Virus record (IMG/VR): IMGVR_UViG_3300030450_002056
Location: 1-64,000 of that record
Reading direction: 5' to 3' (one strand)
Source: a virus
DNA length: 64,000 nt
Under the pieces are notes generated by a model. The model saw only the letters and a program-made list of their open reading frames with translations, ran no database searches and was not told the DNA's origin. Positions 2,682 through 57,087 of the stretch are shown piece by piece; position 1 is the first letter of the stretch; each line of letters starts with the position of its first letter. A program made the translations under genes and the position numbers.

Positions 2682-2916
2682 TTTACCACCACTCATCTAA
2701 TCGGCCAGTCCTCAATTATCATCGCGAGCAGTTGCTCCCTAGCCCATGTATGGTTACAATATCCATGATACCGACAATTCTCTTTCGGGTTTTCTAGTGT
2801 TTCTATACAGATAAGGGCCAAATCGTGAGGCGACACTTTCACCCATGAACTCCCGCGATAAGTAGTTAAATCTTTTATTTTTTCTTCTCTATTCATTTTA
2901 CCACCACTCATCTAAT
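2679..2916 (-). repeat. 23-bp direct repeat at two gene junctions
   Basis: The same 23 bases occur at 2679-2701 and 2894-2916 on the minus strand, both ending in a start codon (core GATGAGTGGTGGTAAAATG). In one copy the bases encode the C-terminal LDEWW and stop of the polymerase fragment; in the other they straddle the stop of a different gene and are read in another frame. Confidence 0.85.
2693..2896 (-). CDS. Unrecognised small protein
   Basis: 67 residues starting MNREEK. The ATG at 2896 lies one base after the polymerase fragment's stop. Contains CRYHGYCNH, a possible metal site, and ends EDWPIR. No family recognised. Confidence 0.6.
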   Translation of the reverse strand: MNREEKIKDLTTYRGSSWVKVSPHDLALICIETLENPKENCRYHGYCNHTWAREQLLAMIIEDWPIR

Positions 2917-3803
2917 GACCTTTGCTTCAAGTCTTTCTTAATATCGTTAATATCCCAATTCATTGCCTCAAATATAGGTGCGGCCTTTCTCACTACTACT
3001 TCTGAATAGTGTTCCCAATCAGGAGTATAATCTTCAAAATCTTCTTCCAAGATACCTGATATATAATCAGGCCTAATATAGTTCCCCGTTAGTGGGTGCA
3101 TTAGTAGATGGCGATGATTTTGATTAACTTTCATAAACAAGAAAGAATCTTTAATTTCATTTCCTGTAACATGGTTATAAAAATATGCTCCCATTAAACC
3201 CGAACCAAAAGAAACCCTTTTACCATTTGATTTCCAATATTTACCTGTCTTCATTGCGCCTGTATATTCATGTTTATGTTCTCCAACGGATAAGGGTTTA
3301 TCTTCAAATATATGAAATGCCTTCTTACAATTCTCACAATACACATGGAAGCGTTCTTCTTTATAACTACTTCGCTTGATGATTTGATTTAATTCAATAT
3401 CACCACTCAATACATCATTGTATCTCTCACGAAGATAATCTAGAATTTCTATTTTAGTGCATCCATTAACCCACATCTTTAATGTGGTTATCTGAATTTC
3501 TTTTGCTAACTTAGTTTCTGATATTCTTTTTGCAGTAAAGCCAGTCATGAAGAATTCTTCTTCTTCTAAATATCTTCCATCTTTCCAAGAAATTAAACCT
3601 GCATTTCTATTCTTAGTTGCACCTACACCAAGACTACTAAAATACTTTTCAAATTCAAGCACTACAGGGTGTTCTTTTAATCCTAATACATTAGGGAATA
3701 TTTTTCTAACTTCTTCATTTAATTTAACTACTATTTCTTCTGCTTGCTCAACAGAATCTACTTGGCAATAAATCGAATCAGTATGACCATAAACTACCTT
3801 CAT
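2898..3803 (-). CDS. DNA polymerase B, C-terminal fragment (palm motif C and thumb)
   Basis: 301 residues forming the second half of a family B replicative polymerase. It opens directly on motif C, YGHTDSIY (residues 5-12); the usual form is YGDTDS, so the first Asp is His while the second (Asp9) is kept. Thumb sequence follows, including a CENCKKAF cysteine pair. The protein ends QRSLDEWW, a textbook PCNA-interacting (PIP) box. The ATG at 3803 overlaps the DUF2061 stop by ATGA with GGAAGA upstream. The N-terminal half is at 4211-5905. Together they total 865 residues, normal for an archaeal PolB, so the enzyme is presumably a two-chain polymerase as known from Methanothermobacter. Confidence 0.88.
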   Translation of the reverse strand: MKVVYGHTDSIYCQVDSVEQAEEIVVKLNEEVRKIFPNVLGLKEHPVVLEFEKYFSSLGVGATKNRNAGLISWKDGRYLEEEEFFMTGFTAKRISETKLAKEIQITTLKMWVNGCTKIEILDYLRERYNDVLSGDIELNQIIKRSSYKEERFHVYCENCKKAFHIFEDKPLSVGEHKHEYTGAMKTGKYWKSNGKRVSFGSGLMGAYFYNHVTGNEIKDSFLFMKVNQNHRHLLMHPLTGNYIRPDYISGILEEDFEDYTPDWEHYSEVVVRKAAPIFEAMNWDINDIKKDLKQRSLDEWW

Positions 3804-4006
3804 TCTTCCAATCCCCAATTAGTAGTTTGCCACGCTCTTTCATGGAAATAATAGAATACAAATTTAGTTAACACTTCAACTGTAATTATACTTGCGGCAA
3901 CTATAGAATCACCAGTAATAAACCATGCTATTACAAAAGTATCTAGCGTTGCTATTAATCTCCATGTTATCGCTTTCATTCCGCTTCTTTTCTTTGTTGC
4001 ACTCAT
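3800..4006 (-). CDS. DUF2061-like small membrane protein
   Basis: 68 residues matching the pattern of the DUF2061 family: KAITWRLIATLDTFVIAWF, then a hydrophobic segment, then FYYFHERAWQTTNWG. Two predicted membrane helices. Family function is unknown. It is inserted between the two halves of DNA polymerase B and overlaps both neighbours by ATGA, which suggests acquisition at a point where the polymerase gene was already, or thereby became, split. Confidence 0.8.
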   Translation of the reverse strand: MSATKKRSGMKAITWRLIATLDTFVIAWFITGDSIVAASIITVEVLTKFVFYYFHERAWQTTNWGLEE

Positions 4007-4101
4007 TCTTCTTCATCTCCATAAACAATATACATTCCTGTTTGCATACATTTGAATGTAGGATTATGTGGGAAATTTGTCGCTACTATTTTTTTACTCA
4101 T
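4003..4101 (-). CDS. Very small ORF in coupled chain
   Basis: 32 residues, MSKKIVATN at the start and GDEEE at the end. Too short to classify. Supported by ATGA overlaps with both neighbours, the same coupling seen at almost every real junction in this operon. Confidence 0.5.
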   Translation of the reverse strand: MSKKIVATNFPHNPTFKCMQTGMYIVYGDEEE

Positions 4102-4214
4102 TTATACAACCCCTCCATACAATCACACAGATGTCGCTTTTTATATGGCCCTCTGGAAGAATGAGGATTAAGAATTCCCCCACACTCCATACATTCTATA
4201 TCTTTCTCTATCAT
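4098..4214 (-). CDS. Very small zinc-ribbon protein
   Basis: 38 residues with CMECGG and CDC, a probable zinc ribbon. It starts by ATGA overlap with the stop of the polymerase N-terminal fragment. One of three small genes lying between the two polymerase fragments. Confidence 0.55.
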   Translation of the reverse strand: MIEKDIECMECGGILNPHSSRGPYKKRHLCDCMEGLYK

Positions 4215-5905
4215 AATTCTCTCACCCTAAATGCCGCCTCTCTAATTGCTTCTCTTGAACTAGCAGTAATGCTAGCGGCTAAATCAATATCACACCAACC
4301 GAATCCTTGATTACCAACAATGCCGTAGAAAGAGGCCATTAATCTTTTAACAGCCATTTGGTTATTATTCCACTTATTGTAATCTTCTTTAGTAGAAGAA
4401 TTTTTCATGTTAGTTTTATACTGATTCCTTAATGTTTTCAATTCCATAACAGAACGAGGAAGTAATCCTAATTTATCCGTTTTGTAATATAACATCTCAT
4501 GTTTTTCAACAGGAGAAAAATCTCTTGGAGTAGATATATTTACTGCAAACTCAGTTGGTTCGGTAGATTTAGTTTCCCATGAGATATTACGGGCAATCAT
4601 CATTGATGGGTATAGACCTGCAAAATCAAATGCCGCCACATTAAGATGCAATCCATTTGTTCCTTCAGATGTGGGGTCATAAATTAATGCCCCTTCATAA
4701 TCTTTACCATCTCTTTTACCACCTGTAGGGGCTTTCCAAGAAGCATTACGCATAAAGTATATAGAAGCCATGTGAGTTGCATGAAAACAAGCCTCAAACG
4801 GTGCTTTCAATATTCGTTGTAATGAAGTTATTGCATCAGTTAAGTTATTGTTATCATCAATCTTTCGTATTAAATCAACATCTATTAGTGCATATTCCAA
4901 ATATGTATCTGTATCTTCTTCCCATGCTCTTCTAAAGAATTCATTTTTTTCTGGGAATTTTTCACTAACAAGTTTCTTATTACCTAATATAGTTTCTGAA
5001 ACATAATCAAGTGATAAAGTTGGTAGTGTTCCTCTTTGGGAATCAATCCATTGTCGCTCAAATGCTAAATCTAAACTAACAACAATTCTACCTTTAATGG
5101 GCTGTTCTTTAGGGCCAAAAAAATCTCTATTGAATTTACTATCTCTAGAATTATATACATAATTAGAAACTTCTAATACAGGAGATAATAACCGAGCATC
5201 AATATTGTAAAATGCACATCTTTCTAATAATTTAGGTAGGTCGAATCTATTACCAAACCAAGCAATTAACATATCAGGGTCTTTTGCCGCACAATAATTT
5301 ACAAAAGTTCTTAACAACATTTCTTCATTCTGAGAAGTAATTAGAGTCACTTGAGAATCAGTATCAATTACAGGAGTATCTCTCTCATACAATTCATCAG
5401 TGGGAAACCAACAATAGAGTATGTATTCATCATCATAATTATCATAACAACTAATACAGGTAATTTTACCATCATGTTCTCCACCTTGTTGCCATTCCAT
5501 ATCCCAATACCACTTACGCATATCATATTCATGGTAAGGAACACCATCTATGAATCTATCAATTGATGCTCTGTAATGATACTGAACATCTGCTTCATAA
5601 GTTTGAGTATCATATAATTCCGTCATTTCTTTAGATACCACTTTTATTTCAGATGGATGATTACAAATTACTTTCGTCAGTTTTTCACCCTCTAAATTAT
5701 ACCACTCGCCTTCTTCATATCGCAGAGAATATACCTTACTGTTTTTCCATCTATCATTTTTATACATTTGGTCTGGCTTAAATGCAGTTTCTTTAACATA
5801 AAAATAAGGTGGGTAATCTGAAAATGGTATTATCTCAGATTCCCTTTCCTTATCTTCATTGCGCCATGCAAAATATATTCCTTTATTTGTATTTGATATT
5901 ATCAT
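4211..5905 (-). CDS. DNA polymerase B, N-terminal fragment (exonuclease, motifs A and B)
   Basis: 564 residues carrying the proofreading exonuclease and first part of the polymerase palm and fingers. Exo I is WYWDMEW (Asp135, Glu137), Exo II is FGNRFD (Asn219, Asp222), and Exo III is YALID (Tyr338, Asp342). Motif A is FDFAGLYPSM (Asp427) and motif B is KRLMASFYG (520-528). All exonuclease acidic residues are intact. The chain stops at FRVREL, just before motif C; the missing motif C and thumb are supplied by the gene at 2898-3803. The break is a clean stop and restart with no frameshift and no intein sequence at either edge. It is followed directly by the sliding clamp gene upstream, a typical replisome order. 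Confidence 0.9.
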   Translation of the reverse strand: MIISNTNKGIYFAWRNEDKERESEIIPFSDYPPYFYVKETAFKPDQMYKNDRWKNSKVYSLRYEEGEWYNLEGEKLTKVICNHPSEIKVVSKEMTELYDTQTYEADVQYHYRASIDRFIDGVPYHEYDMRKWYWDMEWQQGGEHDGKITCISCYDNYDDEYILYCWFPTDELYERDTPVIDTDSQVTLITSQNEEMLLRTFVNYCAAKDPDMLIAWFGNRFDLPKLLERCAFYNIDARLLSPVLEVSNYVYNSRDSKFNRDFFGPKEQPIKGRIVVSLDLAFERQWIDSQRGTLPTLSLDYVSETILGNKKLVSEKFPEKNEFFRRAWEEDTDTYLEYALIDVDLIRKIDDNNNLTDAITSLQRILKAPFEACFHATHMASIYFMRNASWKAPTGGKRDGKDYEGALIYDPTSEGTNGLHLNVAAFDFAGLYPSMMIARNISWETKSTEPTEFAVNISTPRDFSPVEKHEMLYYKTDKLGLLPRSVMELKTLRNQYKTNMKNSSTKEDYNKWNNNQMAVKRLMASFYGIVGNQGFGWCDIDLAASITASSREAIREAAFRVREL

Positions 5906-11796: not shown

Positions 11797-12266
11797 TATT
11801 CATACAACTCCTTACATAATGAGGCTTCAATGTTATGGTCAGGCCAAACCCCGCGACCTTGATTTGGTGAAAGTTGAACCCAATACCAATGACTCGGCAT
11901 TATTCTCCTTTTACCTTCTTGGATTGCATTTTGCTCAGCATAGGAGGCTAACTCTCTAACAAGCCCCTCAATCTGGTCTTTAACAAAATAAATCAAATCG
12001 TTAGATACCGACAACTCAGCAACTTCATCTTTGATTATCTTAGAGAGATTCAAAATTTTAGCCTTCCGTTTAGGGGTCTTTGGCTTGGTTGGAACGATAA
12101 TATCTCCTTTTTCATCAAAGTAAGGACACATTTCTACGCGATACTTTCGCAACCTACCCCTACTTTCCTCTGCGACCTTCTTCAAAAACGCATACCCATC
12201 TTCGATTTTTACACACTGATACGGCCAATTCTCTATTAGGGTCATTTTACCTACTTCAATCATCAT
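11796..12266 (-). CDS. Histone-fold protein (larger copy)
   Basis: 156 residues. Residues of about 70-130 follow the archaeal histone pattern: LSKIIKDEVAELSVSNDL matches the RIIKDAGAERVSDDA region of HMfB. It continues with the long central helix and ends KRRIMPSHW, matching RKTIKAEDI. Predicted to bind DNA as a dimer. It has about 65 extra N-terminal residues and a C-terminal extension containing a Trp/Asn-rich stretch. Start at 12266 overlaps the ligase stop by ATGA with GGAG upstream; an ATG at 12245 after GTAGGTAAA is also possible. A second histone-fold gene lies on the other side of the ligase. Confidence 0.65.
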   Translation of the reverse strand: MMIEVGKMTLIENWPYQCVKIEDGYAFLKKVAEESRGRLRKYRVEMCPYFDEKGDIIVPTKPKTPKRKAKILNLSKIIKDEVAELSVSNDLIYFVKDQIEGLVRELASYAEQNAIQEGKRRIMPSHWYWVQLSPNQGRGVWPDHNIEASLCKELYE

Positions 12267-13813
12267 ATCATCTCCATAACTGTGGTTAGTGTATCTATGT
12301 CTTTAGGGAACTTATCCTCTCGGATTCGTTTTACTCTCGGAAATCTTAGTCCGTAATTACCTTGCTCATCTTGGCTTACTAAATCAGCAGAAACTTCTAA
12401 TACTATTCTAGGTAAGAAATGGAATGTATCTCCTTCATATGAATCAACATTCTTTTTAAGGTTAGTAGTTAATAAAAACAATTGTGCCTCTGATAGTCCC
12501 GTTCCAACAGAACCTACTGGTATATACTCATCCCCGTCTAATACAGAAATTCCTAATGTCCCAAATACACCGCTTCTTTTACCTTCGCCATATTTTCCAG
12601 AAGTAATAACTACATCAAGAGATACTCTAGGAGGTTTATGTTTTAACCAACCTTTACTTCTCTTTCCAGATTGATAGGGCATATTACCATCTTTAATCAT
12701 TATACCCTCAAAGCCTAAATCAATTGCAGTTTGGTAAGCACTTGCTTCTGTAAAATCTCCATCTGAACCAAACACATAAGTTTGATATTCCTTTGGGACT
12801 ACTTTTTGTAGGGTTTCCATCCTTACACTTTGAGGTTGTTCTAAATATGATTTACCATCTAAAGACAATAAATCAAACACGGCTAATTTAACAGGGCATT
12901 GTTGAACAGCCTCCGCCTTATTTAGTTTGTGAACTCTCTTTGCTAACAGTTTATGTTCAGCAGGTGAACCATCTAAATTAATGGGGTATATTTCTGTGTC
13001 TAAAATTACATTTGTGCTTTCAAAATCTCTAACAATGTTAACAATGTCGGGATATTGGCTAGTTACAATATTGCCCTTCCGATTAAAAATAATTATAGAT
13101 ACAGCATTGGCAACCCATGATTTATGTATTTGATATCTATTACCATCATACTTAATATCAACTATAGCATTCCTAACAACATCTCTCGGTTTCTTTGCTT
13201 TAGCCAACATAGGCTTAACAAACTGCCCATGAACTAATTTACACTCTGGAACTTTTCCAGCATCTAACTCAGAACAAATCTTACTGGCTGTATTATATTT
13301 ATGGTATTCCATAACTTTAGAATCACTGTAATACTTTGATAAGACCTTTAATGGTATTTTATTATTAACACCATTTCTAGGCTTTCTAAGCCAATATCTA
13401 ACAAACCATTTTTTCTCTAAGCAATTCATTTGTTTTATTGCTTTAGAAAACCTAACGTAAGATGGGCCTGACTGTGATGCACAATCCATTTCAAGTAATG
13501 ATATAAATTCTGAAATAGTAATACCTGAAGAATCATTTTCACCTTCATACAATACATATAGACCCTCGCCCATATCTCCCCAACAATTTATTTCATATTC
13601 TAGTTCTTCTTCAAATAAACCTAATGCGCTAGAAACCCACTTTATAGATTTCTTAGAACCCATATTATTATTAGCATATTCTAAAGATAGAATCTTAATT
13701 ACAGATGGCTTATCTTCAAAAGAAGAAAGGTTCTCTGAAATTATTTTCACCTTTTCTGTGGGGGGTTTATCTTCAATTAGTTGGCACAAATTAGAAATCT
13801 GTTGAAGACTCAT
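12263..13813 (-). CDS. ATP-dependent DNA ligase (replicative)
   Basis: 516 residues; seals nicks in viral DNA. Adenylation motif I is KYDGNR with Lys221. Later motifs are LDTEIYP (III), AVFDLL (IIIa), EGIMIKD (IV) and GWLKHK (V), then an OB-fold domain. An N-terminal DNA-binding domain of about 200 residues is present, so length and order match archaeal/eukaryotic ligase I. ATG at 13813 follows GAGGTGGTC and overlaps the upstream histone-fold gene by 23 bases. A second, unrelated-looking ligase lies in the virion module at 54541. Confidence 0.93.
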   Translation of the reverse strand: MSLQQISNLCQLIEDKPPTEKVKIISENLSSFEDKPSVIKILSLEYANNNMGSKKSIKWVSSALGLFEEELEYEINCWGDMGEGLYVLYEGENDSSGITISEFISLLEMDCASQSGPSYVRFSKAIKQMNCLEKKWFVRYWLRKPRNGVNNKIPLKVLSKYYSDSKVMEYHKYNTASKICSELDAGKVPECKLVHGQFVKPMLAKAKKPRDVVRNAIVDIKYDGNRYQIHKSWVANAVSIIIFNRKGNIVTSQYPDIVNIVRDFESTNVILDTEIYPINLDGSPAEHKLLAKRVHKLNKAEAVQQCPVKLAVFDLLSLDGKSYLEQPQSVRMETLQKVVPKEYQTYVFGSDGDFTEASAYQTAIDLGFEGIMIKDGNMPYQSGKRSKGWLKHKPPRVSLDVVITSGKYGEGKRSGVFGTLGISVLDGDEYIPVGSVGTGLSEAQLFLLTTNLKKNVDSYEGDTFHFLPRIVLEVSADLVSQDEQGNYGLRFPRVKRIREDKFPKDIDTLTTVMEMI

Positions 13814-14006
13814 CTTGACCACCTCTATAGAATAAACTAATTACCGCCCTTTGAACGTGATGTTTATTTAATTTCTTATCGTCTGCATTATTAAATTCCC
13901 GTATAGTCATATTAATGACTTCCTCTAACCTATGGGCCATATATTTTTCTATTTCCACATAAGTATCGGAATTAACATAAGTTCCTCTTTCTAAATTATT
14001 CTTCAT
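13791..14006 (-). CDS. Histone-fold protein (minimal copy)
   Basis: About 71 residues, close to the size of a single archaeal histone. YVNSDTYVEIEKYMAHRL aligns with the ERVSDDARITLAKILEEM region of HMfB, and DKKLNKHHVQRAV with GRKTIKAEDIELAV, with the same distance between the two blocks (about 46 residues). Helix 1 is poorly conserved. The start is uncertain: ATG at 14006 (chosen) or 14027. Adjacent to the ligase and a PC4-like gene, giving a small chromatin/DNA-binding cluster. Confidence 0.6.
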   Translation of the reverse strand: MKNNLERGTYVNSDTYVEIEKYMAHRLEEVINMTIREFNNADDKKLNKHHVQRAVISLFYRGGQDESSTDF

Positions 14007-18025: not shown

Positions 18026-18889
18026 TCACCTCATTAATTCATTCATTGTTATATAATCCAAATTGGATTTCTTTATGTTAATTAGTTCTAATACAATCTT
18101 AACATGGTTCCTCAAGCCTACTTCTGATACTTGAGTGATTTCACTTATTCTTTCTTGTGTATAATGTTCTCTTCTAATCAGAGAAACAATATAAAAACAA
18201 GCGGCTAATGTGGCTCGGCTGAATCTTTTATCAACCAAGTTATATTTATTCTCTATATACTTAGAGAAATTTTGAACATCGCCAAGATATTCAGCAGAGG
18301 GGTTAATCAATCTCGCTCCTGCACCACTGACCATACCATTTACATTTAAATTACTAAACACATATGGCTTACCTAATGCACTCCCTAATCTTTTAGCAAA
18401 CCTTAACATATATTTTACTTCAACACCTGCTAATTTTGCGTGTTCTTGGGGGGAAACAGGTATATTTAGTTCCTTCAATATAAAATAAGTTATTCCTGCG
18501 GCTCTTATTTCCATAGAAATAGTTGCTATCTTCTGCTTAGAAAGAAAGGTCTTGTAATATTTAGTTATTCTTTTTCTTATGTCTGGCCTTACCGAATATT
18601 TACTTAAAAGTGCATTCGATAATCTTACCATCCTAACATAGTAGACAGAGTTTGGTTGACCAAATTTCTGTGCTCTATAAAGAGAGAATCCTTTTCTACC
18701 ATATTTAGAAGCATCAGAAGATTTTATCGTGCTACCTAATTCTATCCCTGTTATCTCATGGTTTAATGAAAAGGTTGTTTCTTCTAATAGTTGCTGAATC
18801 AATACAAGTCCACAAGAACCACAAACTATTTCGCCTAATCTTTCTGAATAATCTAAATCATTACTATTACATTCAAAACATTTTTCCAT
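18026..18889 (-). CDS. tfb: Transcription initiation factor TFB (TFIIB-like)
   Basis: 287 residues. N-terminal zinc ribbon CFECNSNDL...CGSCGLVL (about 4-28) that recruits RNA polymerase, a B-finger/linker region, then two cyclin-like repeats (about 95-285) that contact TBP and the BRE. Within repeat 2, FSRATLAACFYIVSLI, followed by QERISEITQVSEVGLRNH, gives the typical helix-turn-helix. Length is that of archaeal TFB. A viral TFB could redirect the host polymerase to viral promoters with particular BRE sequences, relevant to the shared promoter elements at 31.4-35.6 kb. Confidence 0.92.
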   Translation of the reverse strand: MEKCFECNSNDLDYSERLGEIVCGSCGLVLIQQLLEETTFSLNHEITGIELGSTIKSSDASKYGRKGFSLYRAQKFGQPNSVYYVRMVRLSNALLSKYSVRPDIRKRITKYYKTFLSKQKIATISMEIRAAGITYFILKELNIPVSPQEHAKLAGVEVKYMLRFAKRLGSALGKPYVFSNLNVNGMVSGAGARLINPSAEYLGDVQNFSKYIENKYNLVDKRFSRATLAACFYIVSLIRREHYTQERISEITQVSEVGLRNHVKIVLELINIKKSNLDYITMNELMR

Positions 18890-27666: not shown

Positions 27667-27743
27667 TGGTAGGTCTGGCAGGATTTGAACCCGCGACCAA
27701 CGGGTTAAAAGCCCGTTGCGCTACCTGACTGCGCCACAGACCT
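27667..27743 (-). tRNA. tRNA-Lys(UUU)
   Basis: Complete cloverleaf. Acceptor AGGTCTG/CAGACCT, D stem GCGC/GCGC, anticodon stem ACGGG/CCCGT with loop CTTTTAA (anticodon TTT), T stem GCGGG/CCTGC with TTCAAAT loop, discriminator A and encoded CCA. The 5' end directly abuts the stop codon of the gene at 27744. It decodes AAA/AAG, the commonest kind of codon in this Lys-rich, AT-rich genome. Confidence 0.95.
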
Positions 27744-28367
27744 TTAACTTAATTTATTCTCTAATTCCTTAATTCTCTTTTCTAATTGAATATTGCGATT
27801 ATTAATAATGTTTATTTGATTAGCGAATCTCTTAGTGACTTCTGATTCTAATGAAAATGAATCTAACTTTTCATTTATTGTTTCATCAATTTCACTCTTT
27901 AACTCTCTAAACTCTGCTAAAGAATTAGAATGTTGTGTTTTTGTTCTTTTAACATAAGCATTATGTATTCTACCCATATCATCATAAAATTCCTTAACTT
28001 CTAATTTATAATTAGAAAGGTCTAAGGATAGTTCTGGTGAGTTATTAACAATATCTTCTATTTTAGGTAGTTTGATTTCATCCACTTTCTTAGTTAAGTT
28101 ATCTATTTCATGCATTGTTTCTACATATCTAACTAGAATATCTGGGATAATTTCACTTCGTAAGTCTTCCACATACTGCCTTAATTCAACTTTAGATTTT
28201 GCTAAGTTAGCCGCTACTAGTCTACTATTCCTCTTGGGGCCTCTACCTTTTAAATGCTCATCACACCTATATCTCCTATAGTTGTGAGATGTCACTTTAA
28301 ATGGCTTTCTACACTTAAATCCGGTTTGTTCATCTACATGGTTACATTCTCTCATCGACATATTCAT
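27744..28367 (-). CDS. Zinc-finger coiled-coil protein
   Basis: About 203-207 residues. N-terminal CNHVDEQTGFKC followed by CDEH gives a zinc-binding module, then basic RGPKRNSR, then helices with a C-terminal coiled coil (NIQLEKRIKELENKL). Starts at ATG 28367 or one of the two ATGs just downstream. Its stop is immediately followed by tRNA-Lys, so both are probably cotranscribed and separated by RNase P. Function unknown. Confidence 0.65.
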   Translation of the reverse strand: MNMSMRECNHVDEQTGFKCRKPFKVTSHNYRRYRCDEHLKGRGPKRNSRLVAANLAKSKVELRQYVEDLRSEIIPDILVRYVETMHEIDNLTKKVDEIKLPKIEDIVNNSPELSLDLSNYKLEVKEFYDDMGRIHNAYVKRTKTQHSNSLAEFRELKSEIDETINEKLDSFSLESEVTKRFANQINIINNRNIQLEKRIKELENKLS

Positions 28368-28455
28368 ACCTCTATTTTATTTCTCTTCGTTTTATTATTG
28401 TTTAGCGGAATGGTTGATTATTACCTTCTCCGGTAAGTCTACATATTAGTGTTTA

Positions 28456-28465
28456 CTTATATAAG
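28456..28465 (-). promoter_or_regulatory. TATA box for the 28367 gene
   Basis: CTTATATAAG lies about 90 bases upstream of the ATG in an otherwise gene-free 149-base stretch downstream of tRNA-Glu. Fits an archaeal TATA box; transcription start would be about 25 bases downstream. Confidence 0.5.
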
Positions 28466-28516
28466 TTCCTTTATCAGTATATTATCAGAAGCGTGTAAGG
28501 CTCCCTATTGAATGGG

Positions 28517-28594
28517 TGGTGCTGAATCCGGAATTTGAATCCGGGTCATCGGGATGAAAACCCGATATGATGGGCCTAACTACACCAATTCAGC
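28517..28594 (-). tRNA. tRNA-Glu(UUC)
   Basis: Complete cloverleaf with acceptor GCTGAAT/ATTCAGC, anticodon stem TCGGG/CCCGA with loop TTTTCAT (anticodon TTC), T arm CCGGA/TCCGG with TTCAAAT, discriminator A and encoded CCA. Decodes GAA/GAG, highly used here. Confidence 0.95.
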
Positions 28595-28606
28595 ATATAA
28601 ATTATA

Positions 28607-28696
28607 TGTGGGCTTCCCACCCAACTCGATAGGTTTTCTCCCACTTCCTATTAAGTGACGAACAGGCGATACCACTAATATGCCTTTGGAGTTTAA
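28607..28696 (-). ncRNA. Structured RNA-like unit, copy B
   Basis: 90-base unit directly adjoining copy A. Minus-strand order is TTAAACTCC, a variable hairpin (AGGCATA with TATCGCCT, one bulge), the conserved ATAGG...CCTAT stem with a GGAGAA-containing loop, then TTGGG(7-base loop)CCCA and the end CACA. Lies between tRNA-Leu and tRNA-Glu. Not a tRNA: no T arm (TTCAAAT) is present. No known family recognised. Confidence 0.5.
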
Positions 28697-28781
28697 TGTG
28701 GGCCTCTCACCCAACTTGATAGGTATTCTCCTACACTTCCTATTAAGCGTGTGTAACCGTGACAAAACGGTTGGAGTTTAA
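28697..28781 (-). ncRNA. Structured RNA-like unit, copy A
   Basis: 85-base unit with the same layout as copy B. The variable hairpin is AACCG/CGGTT, different in sequence from copy B but again able to pair. The ATAGG/CCTAT and TGGG/CCCA stems are kept in sequence, with different loop bases (TGAGAGG here, TGGGAAG in copy B). This supports selection for RNA structure rather than chance duplication. Confidence 0.5.
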
Positions 28782-28868
28782 TGGTTGCGAGAGTGGGATT
28801 TGAACCCACGAAGCACTACGCACAGAATCTTAAGTCCTGCCCCTTTGACCAAACTCGGGTATCTCGCA
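28782..28868 (-). tRNA. tRNA-Leu(UAA)
   Basis: Class II tRNA with long variable arm. Acceptor TGCGAGA/TCTCGCA, anticodon stem CAGGA/TTCTG with loop CTTAAGA (anticodon TAA), variable arm of about 14 bases, T arm GTGGG/CCCAC with TTCAAAT, discriminator A and encoded CCA. Decodes UUA, the preferred Leu codon of AT-rich genomes. Confidence 0.93.
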
Positions 28869-31579: not shown

Positions 31580-32154
31580 TTGTCCCGTTAAGCACAACAA
31601 AATCACTCTTGTTCGTCATCCTCCATGATAGCGGAGGATAGACCGTCTAGGGTTCCATCCCATGTTCCTGCTTTATACAGGCTAGTTGCAGTCTTCTTGA
31701 TTGAAGATGCAATATATGCTCCATAGTCAGCACCATCCGAATAGGACTGCTTGCTGCTACGGCCGTGTGGTGTAAGGAAAGCACGAATACCCTCCCCACA
31801 CTCATCGAATGCCCTTCCAAATGAATTGGATGCATCCTTGCTTAGTGAGTCTACAACGCTAAGTGCGGTTGCTGGTAATACGCCGCCACCGCCTTTTCTC
31901 CAAGGATATCCGGGATAACTCCTTAGAGTTTCCTTTATTGCCTTCTGTATAGATTCAGGTGTTTCTCCTGATGCTTCATACTGTTGATTACCAACATTAC
32001 TTAGCATTTCAAAAGCCTGTCTTACATCATGTGTGATGTTTCCAGCCTCATCTGCGTCAATCATCTGTTGTGCCTTTAATAGTGTATCATTCCAACTTTC
32101 TGCCATAATAATTACCTCTGATTACTTAGTAATCTTGTCGTCTTAACGGGACAA
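31580..32154. repeat. 13-bp perfect inverted repeat flanking gene A
   Basis: TTGTCCCGTTAAG at 31580-31592 and its exact reverse complement at 32142-32154. One arm lies in the predicted 5' leader and the other just past the stop of the 31603-32106 gene, so the two ends of that mRNA could pair. Confidence 0.85.
31603..32106 (-). CDS. Acidic protein A of a divergent paralogue pair
   Basis: 167 residues, family unknown. Clearly related to protein B (32567-33094): both share an LS...S-x-E/D...AI segment, P-[WF]-RKG, LPA, and the block L-T-x-HGRS followed by Y-x-D-(x)-YG. It is richer in GC and in GC-ending codons than its neighbours, like the capsid genes, which suggests high expression. AGAGGTAAT precedes the ATG. 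Promoter P2 lies upstream and an inverted repeat flanks the gene. No membrane, zinc or nucleotide-binding motif. Confidence 0.75.
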   Translation of the reverse strand: MAESWNDTLLKAQQMIDADEAGNITHDVRQAFEMLSNVGNQQYEASGETPESIQKAIKETLRSYPGYPWRKGGGGVLPATALSVVDSLSKDASNSFGRAFDECGEGIRAFLTPHGRSSKQSYSDGADYGAYIASSIKKTATSLYKAGTWDGTLDGLSSAIMEDDEQE

Positions 32155-32172
32155 TATATCCCACCGAGCAAG

Positions 32173-32211
32173 CATATATGAAGGGTTCGGAACAAAGTCG
32201 AACCATATGGT
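32173..32211 (-). promoter_or_regulatory. Shared-type promoter P2 for gene A
   Basis: Reading leftward: the perfect palindrome ACCATATGGT (32211-32202), CTTTG within the spacer, then CATATATG 21 bases later. The predicted start near 32150 leaves a short leader that carries one arm of the inverted repeat and the ribosome binding site. Confidence 0.6.
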
Positions 32212-32463
32212 AGGGTTGGAAACATTGGAAAACTGGAAAGGTGGTGTTCAAAAGAAAGTAGGGTTTTTCATTGATGATTGTTGCTAACACATTGAAAATC
32301 CAAGTTATTATTCTTAGTGTAAATTTTACACCAAAAGAAATACCAATACTGCTTCATAACCAATAGCAATATTGTAATCTCCTGTTGTTATGCTCCCACT
32401 GCTCGCTGACCGACAGCGAAAGTTAGACGCAATAATTAAATTAATCTAATTAAACCAATTACT
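32212..32463. other. Strand-switch intergenic region, origin candidate
   Basis: Between the two divergent promoters lie the palindrome GTGTAAATTTTACAC (32317-32331), a TCGCTG/CAGCGA hairpin (32403-32419) and an AT-only-rich run (about 32421-32457). Transcription diverges here for the whole window, the usual setting for a bidirectional replication origin. Confidence 0.35.
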
Positions 32464-32507
32464 ACCATATGGTGTGAAACTTTGAGTAATCACCCTATAA
32501 CCCCTAT
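32464..32507 (+). promoter_or_regulatory. Shared-type promoter P3 for gene B
   Basis: ACCATATGGT (32464-32473), spacer of 21 bases containing CTTTG, then CTATAACCCCTAT. The last ten bases are shared with P4. Confidence 0.65.
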
Positions 32508-32520
32508 ACTCAACCCAATA

Positions 32521-33114
32521 GTGTAGGCAGGGAAAAACACCTACGGGAGTAATGGAGAGAGAAAATATGACTGATATACGAGTGAAATTTGATAACAAAG
32601 CAGAAGAAGTCGAAGCGTGGATGAATGTTAATCCCGACTATTCGACAGACTACCCGCAACTTGCAGTATTATCGCAGTTGCTAACTATTGGCCGTTCAAG
32701 CGATGAATCGGCACAGTCCATGTATGACGCAATTAGAGCGTGTTTCGTGGGTATTGAGGGCGCACCCTTCCGAAAGGGCAAGACTTCAAGCCTACCTGCT
32801 CAAGTTGTGGCTAACGCAGACAGTGCAACATCTGACCTTAACGCGCTATACACCACATTGATGGCTGATAACGATATAGTCGCCCAACTGATGACCCGAC
32901 ATGGGCGCAGTGGTGGCGGTCTTTATGATGATGCTTCGGAATATGGCGAAGCAGTTTCAAAGCCAGTAAATGCAAGACTCAAGAAGGCCTATTCATCTAT
33001 GGTCGCAAATGATACAGAAGCCGAGTATTGGTGGGATGGAGAACTACCCGTTAATCTAACCCAACCATCGGTAAATTCGGAGGAATCCGAGTAAGCGTAA
33101 TTCCCTGCCTACGC
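32521..33114. repeat. 14-bp inverted repeat flanking gene B
   Basis: GTGTAGGCAGGGAA (32521-32534) pairs with TTCCCTGCCTACGC (33101-33114), 13 Watson-Crick pairs and one G-T. Arms lie in the 5' leader and directly after the stop codon, as in gene A, but with an unrelated sequence. Confidence 0.85.
32567..33094 (+). CDS. Acidic protein B of a divergent paralogue pair
   Basis: About 175 residues from ATG 32567 (an in-frame ATG at 32552 is possible). Paralogue of protein A by the shared blocks FRKG, LPA, MTRHGRS and YDDASEYG. GC-rich codon use relative to surroundings again suggests strong expression. Followed by the inverted-repeat arm and a GGCCC-TTCT-GGGCC hairpin. Function unknown; could be an abundant early protein or a virion component. 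Confidence 0.75.
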   Translation: MTDIRVKFDNKAEEVEAWMNVNPDYSTDYPQLAVLSQLLTIGRSSDESAQSMYDAIRACFVGIEGAPFRKGKTSSLPAQVVANADSATSDLNALYTTLMADNDIVAQLMTRHGRSGGGLYDDASEYGEAVSKPVNARLKKAYSSMVANDTEAEYWWDGELPVNLTQPSVNSEESE

Positions 33115-33172: not shown

Positions 33173-33214
33173 ACCATATGGTAATGCTTTGCTATTGCCC
33201 CATATAACCCCTAT
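33173..33214 (+). promoter_or_regulatory. Shared-type promoter P4, probably leaderless
   Basis: ACCATATGGT (33173-33182), CTTTG in the spacer, ATATAACCCCTAT at 33202-33214. The ATG of the next gene (33232) lies about 25 bases past the TATA box, the usual distance to a transcription start in archaea, so the mRNA is probably leaderless. Confidence 0.65.
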
Positions 33215-33231: not shown

Positions 33232-33933
33232 ATGAGTTTGAGATATGAAAGAACTGTTGAGATAGAATTGCCTGTAAATGATAGAGAGAAATTAAGAAAT
33301 TTCTTTATTGATATGCAGAATAAGGATTTCTTTTTGGGTGAGTATAAGAATACTAATGAAGAAGATTATTATGTTCCCTATACTGAGGTGAAGCAATCTA
33401 ATAAGTTTGTTTTTACTGCGGAGAATGGTAAGATAATGTTTGAGTCAGATTTAGAATACCACTCCACTAAACTATCAGACCAATTGACTAAAAATGGCTT
33501 TCCGCACACAAAGACTGAGGTTATTGTTGAAGAGGTAAAAGAGAAGGAAAATGAAATCCCTTCAATAGCCTCACTATACCTTACAGATGAAGAGGTTATT
33601 CCACTATATACAGTTGAAGGGGAGGATATGAGGCTTGATGTGTCTTTCTATACTTACAGTTGGCAAGATACTGTTCGTATTAGATATGTAATTACTTGGG
33701 ACACAGATTCTAAACAATCCCCAAAGGAAATAGAGATGAGAATGAATGATTATTTCATAGCAGAAATGGCTCACATACAAAAGGTAATGGTTGAGGGACT
33801 ATTGACTTATGATATAGTAATAAATGAACCTACATTGGATTGTAAGTTTGAATGTATAAGTCATACTTCCCAAACCTGTTCTAATGAAATTGCAGATGCT
33901 ACACTAAATAGATTAAAGGAGAGTATAGAATGA
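33232..33933 (+). CDS. Unrecognised protein, first gene of a short rightward operon
   Basis: 233 residues, beta-rich with a duplicated feel: two halves each with a strand pattern (TVEIELPVND... and RLDVSFYTYSW...). No family recognised. No ribosome binding site is seen before ATG 33232, agreeing with leaderless initiation from P4. Confidence 0.7.
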   Translation: MSLRYERTVEIELPVNDREKLRNFFIDMQNKDFFLGEYKNTNEEDYYVPYTEVKQSNKFVFTAENGKIMFESDLEYHSTKLSDQLTKNGFPHTKTEVIVEEVKEKENEIPSIASLYLTDEEVIPLYTVEGEDMRLDVSFYTYSWQDTVRIRYVITWDTDSKQSPKEIEMRMNDYFIAEMAHIQKVMVEGLLTYDIVINEPTLDCKFECISHTSQTCSNEIADATLNRLKESIE

Positions 33934-35519: not shown

Positions 35520-35558
35520 ACCATATGGTGTGATAATACAAAAGTCCTATCATATGGG
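35520..35558 (+). promoter_or_regulatory. Shared-type promoter P5
   Basis: Perfect ACCATATGGT (35520-35529) followed by a second site, ATCATATGGG (35549-35558), in the TATA position, 23 bases to TATGGG. CTTTG is missing from this spacer. The transcript may reach the late genes or be a small RNA. Confidence 0.4.
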
Positions 35559-54540: not shown

Positions 54541-57087
54541 GTGGCTATATCTGGCGTTTCCTTTGAAAAAGAAAAAAATGCGCTATCCAAGCGTGTTTTA
54601 GATTTCTTTGAGAGGACTCGCTATTCTTATTTATCTGCGAAAGAAGACCCAAATAAATATGGTAAAAAATGGAGAGCAACAGTTAAGTCTATTCGTGAGT
54701 CATTTGATGGCTTAGATTCTTTTACTAGAGTATTGAAGAAATACATTGATGAAGACGCAGTATTTGATGATAATGTAGAAGACCCTAATTCAACTCAAGC
54801 CAAGCGACTATATGATGCGATTAAAGAAATGAGGTTTCAATCTGAAGAAGTTTCTGACCCATTCGCTAATCAGTTGGGTGAAGAAGTAATTGATGTATTA
54901 CTCAATAATTCTAGTGTCTTTGCGGCCTTTATTCACTATGCCCTTCGCAAACATTCCCTCCCTATCCCTGCATCGGCATGGAAAAAACACGGCCTTAAGC
55001 CCGATGAAATAACTCAAAATGCCAACGGATTAGATTTAGAGATGAAAGATATACCCTTATACATTTCAGAACACTATGGGGAAGATAAAGACACTAAGCG
55101 TATCAAAACCAAATTTAAAAGCGTTTTGTCTATCCTAAAGAAAGTGTTTCTTGAGGAATATAGCGAAAAAGAATGGGATGCTCTAATTGATATAGATATT
55201 AAAAAGTCTGAAAAGAGTTCAGATGAGAAGTCTGAGATTAATTTCCTAACCCCTAATAAACCAATGTATCGAATATTTGAATTAAAAGACTTAGAGCAAT
55301 TGAAAGGTTTTTCTGGTGAATATGTAGTTCAAGAAAAATATGATGGTATGAGAGTGCAAATCCATAAAAATGGTAAAACCATTAAAATTCTTTCTTATAA
55401 CCAAAAAGATATTTCTGATAAATGTCCAGAGCAAATAGAAAGATTGCGTGGAAAGGAAATAGGGAACTGTATCTTAGATGGAGAGTTAATGATATTTAAG
55501 AACGGTAAAGCATTACATAGGGCCGCTACAATTTCACACATTTTTAAGAAGCCTATTGAAGATAGCCAATTAAGACTTCATGTTTTTGATATTATGGAAC
55601 ATGATGATAAAGATTTAATAGATGAACCTTTGAGGGAAAGAATTAATATTCTGTTATATCAATATGCTCAACATTCATCTGAAGAATTAGCATATCCTTC
55701 AAAGAAAGACACTAGAATTGCAGATTCTATAAAAGAAGTAGGGGATTATTCTGAAGAAATAATGAATCTACCCGCTTCTGAAGGTGTGGTTATTAAAGAT
55801 ATTGAATCTACATATCAATTAGGTTCAAGGAAAAATCCTAAGTGGGTTAAATGGAAGAAATTTGTTGATTTAGATGTTATTGTCTTGGATGATAAAACAA
55901 CAAAGAGTGGTCTTCATTCATATACTTTAGGTATTGGCCCATTATCCGCAGAACAAGCCCGTTCTTATAAGACTGTAGAATTGAAAGATAAAGCATATCT
56001 TTCTGTAGGTAAAGCACTAAACACTAAGCAATCCGTTAAGGTGGGTAGTATTGTTAGAGTTAAGGTGGATGAGGTAAAGAAGACTAAAGAGGGTTTTAGT
56101 TTATTCTCAGCGAAAGTTATTGAAATTCCTGAAGTGACTCAATCAGATAAATTAGAAACTTTAGAGTTATTATCAGACAAAGCCAAAAAATCAATTTGGG
56201 AAGATTTAGATAAGCCGTTTAAATATAAATTAAAAGGCGTAAAGAAAATGTATATTACTGATGAAATACATGGGGAAGCAGAAATTCTTATGAAATCTAA
56301 TTTAGATGGATTTACTATTTACGGTTTTAATGGTGATAGTTTAATGGAGAAACAAGCCCTATACGATATAGATGTTTGGAAAGAAGATTTACAAATTGCA
56401 CTTAAAAGTGTTCGTTCTGAGTTAAGAATGGCTATTAAAAATAAATTAATTGAGTGGGAAGAACCTGTAGAATTTGATAAAATACAAGAGTTTGTGTTAG
56501 AAAATTATATTGACCATTTTAAAGGGCCGGCATTTAATAGTGATGTAAAGAAATTAAAGAAGTGGTTAATTAGGCAAGAAGATATTGTTTATCATCGCAC
56601 TAATGATATATTTTCAGTGAACCCTACTGATATAGCAAAGGATGAAAAGGTTAATCCAAAAGAAGGTAAATTTACAATTACAACTACTGAAGATGATAAC
56701 TTATTATTAATTTATGTTGTAAATGATAAAAGGTTAGCGTGGTTAATAGATATTGAAGATTCTTCTGATATTTATAACTTATTTGGTAAATCTAATAAAT
56801 TTCCTGCTAAAATTGTTTTGGGTAATGCTAGAGAAAGTAAAATATTAGATAAAGGAATTATTACTCTTGGTGTTCAAAGGGACGGTTATCACGAATTTAA
56901 ATTAGCAGGTGATAAATTTGATACTAGATTGCATATTAGGGTTGTTCCTTTAAATGATGAAAAACATTGGGTAGTTTGGACAGGAAAGAAACAAACTATG
57001 CTAGAATCAAAGGATGACGATGGTTTGTGGGATATTACCGAAGATAGATATAAAAATTTACCCCTGCCCGAAGGCAATCCCGCTTAG
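54541..57087 (+). CDS. Second ATP-dependent DNA ligase, multidomain, in virion module
   Basis: 848 residues from GTG 54541. About 255 residues of unique helical sequence come first. The adenylation domain has motif I EKYDGMR (Lys266), LDGELM, HVFDIM, EGVVIKD and WVKWKK. An OB domain extends to about residue 540, and about 300 further residues follow. Part of the last domain (RDGYHEFKLAGDKF followed by a WVVWTGKK end) is faintly like the LigD 3'-phosphoesterase fold but lacks its His-rich site. All catalytic motifs are intact. It differs from the early ligase at 12263 in domain plan, and its place among head genes suggests a packaged or late repair/end-sealing role. Confidence 0.82.
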   Translation: MAISGVSFEKEKNALSKRVLDFFERTRYSYLSAKEDPNKYGKKWRATVKSIRESFDGLDSFTRVLKKYIDEDAVFDDNVEDPNSTQAKRLYDAIKEMRFQSEEVSDPFANQLGEEVIDVLLNNSSVFAAFIHYALRKHSLPIPASAWKKHGLKPDEITQNANGLDLEMKDIPLYISEHYGEDKDTKRIKTKFKSVLSILKKVFLEEYSEKEWDALIDIDIKKSEKSSDEKSEINFLTPNKPMYRIFELKDLEQLKGFSGEYVVQEKYDGMRVQIHKNGKTIKILSYNQKDISDKCPEQIERLRGKEIGNCILDGELMIFKNGKALHRAATISHIFKKPIEDSQLRLHVFDIMEHDDKDLIDEPLRERINILLYQYAQHSSEELAYPSKKDTRIADSIKEVGDYSEEIMNLPASEGVVIKDIESTYQLGSRKNPKWVKWKKFVDLDVIVLDDKTTKSGLHSYTLGIGPLSAEQARSYKTVELKDKAYLSVGKALNTKQSVKVGSIVRVKVDEVKKTKEGFSLFSAKVIEIPEVTQSDKLETLELLSDKAKKSIWEDLDKPFKYKLKGVKKMYITDEIHGEAEILMKSNLDGFTIYGFNGDSLMEKQALYDIDVWKEDLQIALKSVRSELRMAIKNKLIEWEEPVEFDKIQEFVLENYIDHFKGPAFNSDVKKLKKWLIRQEDIVYHRTNDIFSVNPTDIAKDEKVNPKEGKFTITTTEDDNLLLIYVVNDKRLAWLIDIEDSSDIYNLFGKSNKFPAKIVLGNARESKILDKGIITLGVQRDGYHEFKLAGDKFDTRLHIRVVPLNDEKHWVVWTGKKQTMLESKDDDGLWDITEDRYKNLPLPEGNPA

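Follow-up and report, generated by a model that had tools for sequence, protein, structure and literature searches.

Two divergently transcribed paralogous genes, each with its own palindromic promoter element and each enclosed by an inverted repeat, lie at 31580-33114 of the window, the 64-kb stretch that we analysed out of a 95.5-kb virus record. The paralogy of A and B is supported by an E-value of 1e-8 in a direct search, and of 1e-47 or lower with a profile that includes both proteins. The following features were defined at the locus, with transcription start sites placed by promoter spacing:

31603-32106, minus strand: gene A, coding for a 167-aa all-alpha protein of an uncharacterised magrovirus-type family (ORF, family profile matches, AlphaFold2 model with pLDDT 86 and seven helices)
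32202-32211, minus strand: palindromic promoter element of gene A, ACCATATGGT, then CTTTG and the TATA-like CATATAT
32142-32154, minus strand: 5' arm of gene A, TTGTCCCGTTAAG, its first base being the putative transcription start
31580-31592, minus strand: 3' arm of gene A, CTTAACGGGACAA, beginning 11 nt past the stop codon and covarying with the relative L150
31593-31602, minus strand: 3' extension of gene A, TTTTGTTGTG, which would lengthen the A helix beyond a bulged G (sequence and whole-mRNA RNAfold MFE)
32135-32154, minus strand: alternative local 5' hairpin of gene A, TTGTC(CCGTTAAGAC)GACAA, with TTGCC/GGCGA in a relative (group-level support moderate)
32120-32134, minus strand: second small leader hairpin of gene A, GATTACT-A-AGTAATC, with both sides changed in the relative's GATAACT-C-AGTTATC (sequence comparison)
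32567-33094, plus strand: gene B, coding for a 175-aa paralog of A
32464-32473, plus strand: palindromic promoter element of gene B, ACCATATGGT
32521-32534, plus strand: 5' arm of gene B, GTGTAGGCAGGGAA, its first base being the putative transcription start
33101-33114, plus strand: 3' arm of gene B, TTCCCTGCCTACGC, beginning 7 nt past the stop codon
32523-32544, plus strand: alternative local 5' hairpin of gene B, GTAGG(loop)CCTAC, directly beside the GGGAG ribosome-binding region (individual p 0.019)
33173-33182 and 35520-35529: further perfect ACCATATGGT palindromes with CTTTG and a TATA-like element

An earlier note on this DNA had already recognized the divergent paralogs and the repeats around A (13 bp, 100% complementary) and B (14 bp with one T-G pair), and had placed one arm of each in the leader, which proved to be at its predicted 5' end, and the partner just past the stop codon. 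All of this is found in the sequence, with a small correction to the position of the B repeat, whose full arm starts at 32521. Besides, an in-frame ATG of gene B at 32552 overlaps its Shine-Dalgarno region.

Regarding the virus itself, Pfam matches in the window (PolB, DNA ligase, TFIIB, B12-dependent ribonucleotide reductase, SU10-type capsid protein and terminase) combine archaeal-type replication and transcription genes with a tailed-virus module, a gene set that we take to be that of magroviruses. Magroviruses (Magrovirales) are viruses infecting marine Poseidoniales. From this gene content we infer a virus of the magrovirus type, with no named magrovirus record matching it in the phage collection, and the hosts of this marine virus group are probably archaea. 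The TFIIB-like protein is encoded at 18026-18889 and might act at the ACCATATGGT promoters. An ATP-dependent DNA ligase domain is present in two separate genes (12263-13822 and 54541-57087), the second of which codes for a long protein inside the structural module; the B-family DNA polymerase region at 2898-5905 is split across at least two ORFs (4211-5905 and 2898-3818, minus strand), and tRNA genes for Lys, Glu and Leu are clustered at 27667-28868 on the minus strand.

Using profiles built from A, B and their relatives, we identified about 80 genes of the A/B family in marine virus contigs. They occur in 1 to 4 copies per genome and code for proteins of 150-200 aa with an all-alpha predicted fold and an acidic tail. 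No convincing identity for these proteins was found in Pfam, PHROGs, NCBIfam or the PDB, by sequence or by fold, and the BFVD matches are without names. Annotated phage records gave no family relatives, GTDB genomes gave none by one single conserved-peptide pattern, and nothing relevant matched in Rfam. One family alignment was too divergent for back-translated scans.

To score the arms, we took for each gene the best ungapped helix that its leader can form with the 50 nt past the stop codon and compared it with dinucleotide shuffles, for which p-values have a floor of about 1/400 to 1/1000. In a first null, flanks of 130 and 110 nt gave inflated values, because the palindromic promoter repeats of neighbouring genes pair mutually; the flanks were then confined to the transcript. 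The helices of A and B beat almost all shuffles (p at the test floor), and among the 59 window genes tested these two alone gave p<0.01. Across the family, arms were detected at p<0.05 in 24 out of 32 gene groups (defined at 70% protein identity) and at p<0.01 in 19 of them. A second, separately fetched gene set, found with an A-like subgroup profile and hence a separate rather than a fully independent sample, showed arms in 10 out of 15, beyond which L267-L269 carry a weak or one-bulge form. The pairing spans 10 to 24 nt, and arms from different groups share no sequence (compare TTGTCCCGTTAAG, GGTGGCGACCGAAC, TGTTAAGTGGGGTTGAAT and CCCCGAAACTTGGG). Family copies without a leader of their own, either inside operons or leaderless, have no arms. 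The same is true of a third paralog type of the L004-L006 viruses, which has a different promoter (TTATATATGG) and was located in three viruses (L147:4255-4734, plus strand; L148:6506-6985, counted on the minus strand; L149:6539-7021, plus strand).

The arms occupy a fixed place relative to the promoter. In these viruses the promoter signature ACCATATGGT-(N)-CTTTG-(N)-TATA is common to many genes, and in 37 non-family genes carrying it the start codon typically lies 58-65 nt (about 62) past the palindrome. Given this distance of about 60 nt, most of their mRNAs are probably leaderless, as for the gene at 33238-33933. Family genes typically have their start codon 95-112 nt past the palindrome, and in most of them the 5' arm begins 51-68 nt past it (mode 57-60; 57 nt in A and B alike). 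The 5' arm thus starts where non-family start codons fall, and would therefore be the first stretch of the mRNA; arm start and promoter-predicted start differ by a median of about 1.5 nt. The 3' arm starts 1-23 nt past the stop codon, and in most genes the 5' arm ends about 20-48 nt before the start codon. As a control we compared genes with the same promoter, among which a significant helix was found in 16 of 19 family members vs 1 of 33 other genes. This comparison shows that the predicted arm pairing is restricted to the family.

To see whether pairing or sequence is conserved, we counted double changes between the arms of orthologs. Pairing was kept in 60 cases and broken in 21, counts that include related comparisons and so give a tendency rather than a number of independent events; sliding the partner by 1-3 nt as a control gave 5-21 kept and 14-31 broken. 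Gene A and its closest relative, L150, share 94% identity in the promoter, 91% in the coding sequence and 64% in each arm, and both arm sets are perfect complements despite this low arm identity. The arms of this pair evolve faster than the adjoining promoter and coding sequence. Read on the sense strand, the mismatches in the interior of the arms comprise 20 G-U and 3 A-C cases (binomial p 2e-4, with some of the helices related). Since a repeat acting at the DNA level would give equal numbers of both, this excess places selection on the sense RNA. According to these comparisons, it is the end pairing itself that is under selection, with the sequence free to change, and we regard a panhandle formed at the RNA level as very probable.

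Folding of the full-length mRNAs with RNAfold gave the panhandle with a mean pair probability of about 0.9 in most genes, the L124-type cluster giving none. Predicted energies of the arm duplexes range from -13 to -36 kcal/mol, vs -3 to -15 kcal/mol for the leader hairpins. These form when the leader (median 48 nt) is folded alone: in most genes a small 5' hairpin is predicted (mean z -1.35), between the first part of the arm and the segment immediately preceding the Shine-Dalgarno sequence, and it would compete with the panhandle for bases. In many genes the remaining arm is predicted to sit in the hairpin loop, where it would resemble a toehold for the 3' arm. A stem test anchored at the 3' end of the arm was weak, since arm and local stem share bases; it was repeated with the promoter-defined start as anchor. 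The hairpins reached p 3e-4 in a swap test and p 0.01 in a Fisher test, and p<0.05 individually in only 3 of 24; given how short the local stems are, we consider their support moderate. Both predicted states keep the 5' terminus paired, with medians of 2 and 1 unpaired nt.

We also calculated the energy needed to open the ribosome site, which averaged 4.2 kcal/mol in the full mRNAs vs 4.7 kcal/mol with the 3' arm removed. Opening was easier with the 3' arm in 9 out of 21 cases and harder in 4, so there was no consistent change and no effect on translation is predicted in either direction. Masking of the ribosome site, as in hok, was considered as well and rejected, given that the opening energies gave no such effect. 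Finally, a scan of the helices for bulge-helix-bulge motifs (two 3-nt bulges on opposite strands, 4 bp apart) found 7 in 24 vs a shuffle mean of 3.55 (maximum 7), and a further count gave 2 in 24 vs a mean of 2.75 (maximum 6), with no clear enrichment. The earlier note had proposed that pairing and not sequence is kept, that arms should be compared in related viruses and that the mRNAs would form closed loops; the compensatory changes and the arms of the 24 divergent groups bear out the first, and a closed loop is the predicted fold. Its likeness to archaeal rRNA processing stems was not borne out, most arms being uninterrupted helices.

Taking these results together, we propose that the mRNA of each family gene would be short and monocistronic, its first 10-24 nt being complementary to the segment just after the stop codon. 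During transcription, the small 5' hairpin would hold the first bases; once transcribed, the 3' arm would pair first with the hairpin loop and then displace the stem, so that the panhandle closes the mRNA. Such an mRNA would have its 5' terminus base-paired and its 3' end within a stem, and would most likely be protected from both 5'-end-dependent and 3'-exonucleolytic decay; Archaea are known to degrade mRNA in the 5'-3' direction (aCPSF2, PMC3792030). The panhandle would also join stop and start in a closed loop, which would help a presumably abundant viral protein to be expressed persistently or efficiently. We give about an even chance to this reading, a dedicated 5'-3' panhandle mRNA with a predicted fold and a presumed use in end protection, expression or both. 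As a counterpoint, translating ribosomes would intermittently hinder the 3' arm. A more specific version is decidedly more tentative: the family may own a sequence-free device in which the loop offers a toehold to the strand of the 3' UTR and closes the mRNA only at complete transcription, coupling stability or translation to completeness.

The nearest known anatomy is that of the toxin mRNAs hok and AapA, in which long-distance 5'-3' pairing is combined with metastable 5' hairpins (PMC6733600). One could argue for a timing switch of the same kind, in which the 5' hairpin keeps ribosomes off the RNA while it is being made and the long-distance pairing then decides whether the completed mRNA is translated, either silencing it until it is processed or permitting translation of the complete molecule only. 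Here too a predicted 5' hairpin and a long-distance helix would compete for the same bases, relatives show compensatory changes, the hairpins often end beside the Shine-Dalgarno sequence, and hok and AapA3 are precedents (PMC6733600). However, hok, AapA and icaR pairing hides the ribosome site, whereas in the virus family the helix does not include that site, and pairing shifts its predicted accessibility in no consistent direction. Unlike in hok and AapA, the helix begins at the first (promoter-predicted) nucleotide, in a virus of archaeal type. Those mRNAs encode a small membrane toxin countered by an antisense RNA antitoxin; the virus proteins (150-200 aa, around 170 aa typically) have an all-alpha model and an acidic tail and are no small hydrophobic toxins. 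We hold such a switch to be rather improbable. End protection and the closed loop are preferred to masking, since neither predicted state leaves the 5' end single-stranded and the panhandle clamps the 3' end.

Less likely still is a device acting mainly on translation, in which the helix brings the stop codon to the start so that terminating ribosomes re-initiate, in an RNA-only closed loop. The positions of both arms relative to the stop and start codons would suit it, as would the presence of leadered, Shine-Dalgarno-bearing mRNAs amid mostly leaderless neighbours, but many 3' arms lie so close to the stop codon that a ribosome there would occlude part of them. It is very improbable that the helix is a processing stem, cut to circularise the mRNA as in archaeal pre-rRNA. 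The geometry of a helix enclosing the gene is alike, and circular RNAs are known in Archaea (PMC7714728); the archaeal rRNA stems, however, depend on bulge-helix-bulge motifs, which the splicing endonuclease cuts (PMC7714728), and here a coding mRNA is enclosed, such motifs are not clearly enriched and the helices are mostly uninterrupted. Least probable of all, inverted repeats acting in DNA (mobile-element ends, invertible cassettes or cruciforms) would explain gene units bounded by repeats with several paralogs per genome, but they are disfavoured by the excess of sense-strand G-U mismatches, by arms that share no sequence between groups, unlike element-specific terminal repeats, and by arms that start at the promoter-predicted start site and are missing from operon copies.

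Our preferred reading, the panhandle mRNA, can be set beside two further systems. The icaR mRNA of Staphylococcus aureus pairs its 5' UTR with its 3' UTR and is an RNase III substrate (PMC3868564). In that single gene a short motif is directed at the Shine-Dalgarno region, whereas here 10-24 bp of free sequence pair at the extreme ends across a whole family, with 5' arms that in most genes stop short of the Shine-Dalgarno region. As modelled, the architecture is common to hok/AapA and icaR, with the Shine-Dalgarno sequestration that defines them absent from the prediction. Flavivirus cyclisation sequences (PMC7999817) are terminal RNA segments that likewise pair end to end, there serving replication of an RNA virus genome, whereas here the molecules are mRNAs of a DNA virus. 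A 2023 survey of magroviruses (PMC10160649) makes no mention of an inverted repeat, promoter, leaderless or UTR, and for 5'-3' mRNA pairing or circular mRNA in Archaea we found nothing closer in the open-access literature.

Direct 5'-3' pairing within one mRNA had previously come from a few bacterial cases, namely type I toxin mRNAs and icaR. That it recurs in dozens of virus genes whose arm sequences are almost unconstrained is strong comparative evidence of function. The family places natural variants at hand for testing whether end pairing controls the decay or translation of archaeal mRNAs, and its sequence-independent signature, with one arm at the start site and the other past the stop codon, can be searched for in other viruses.
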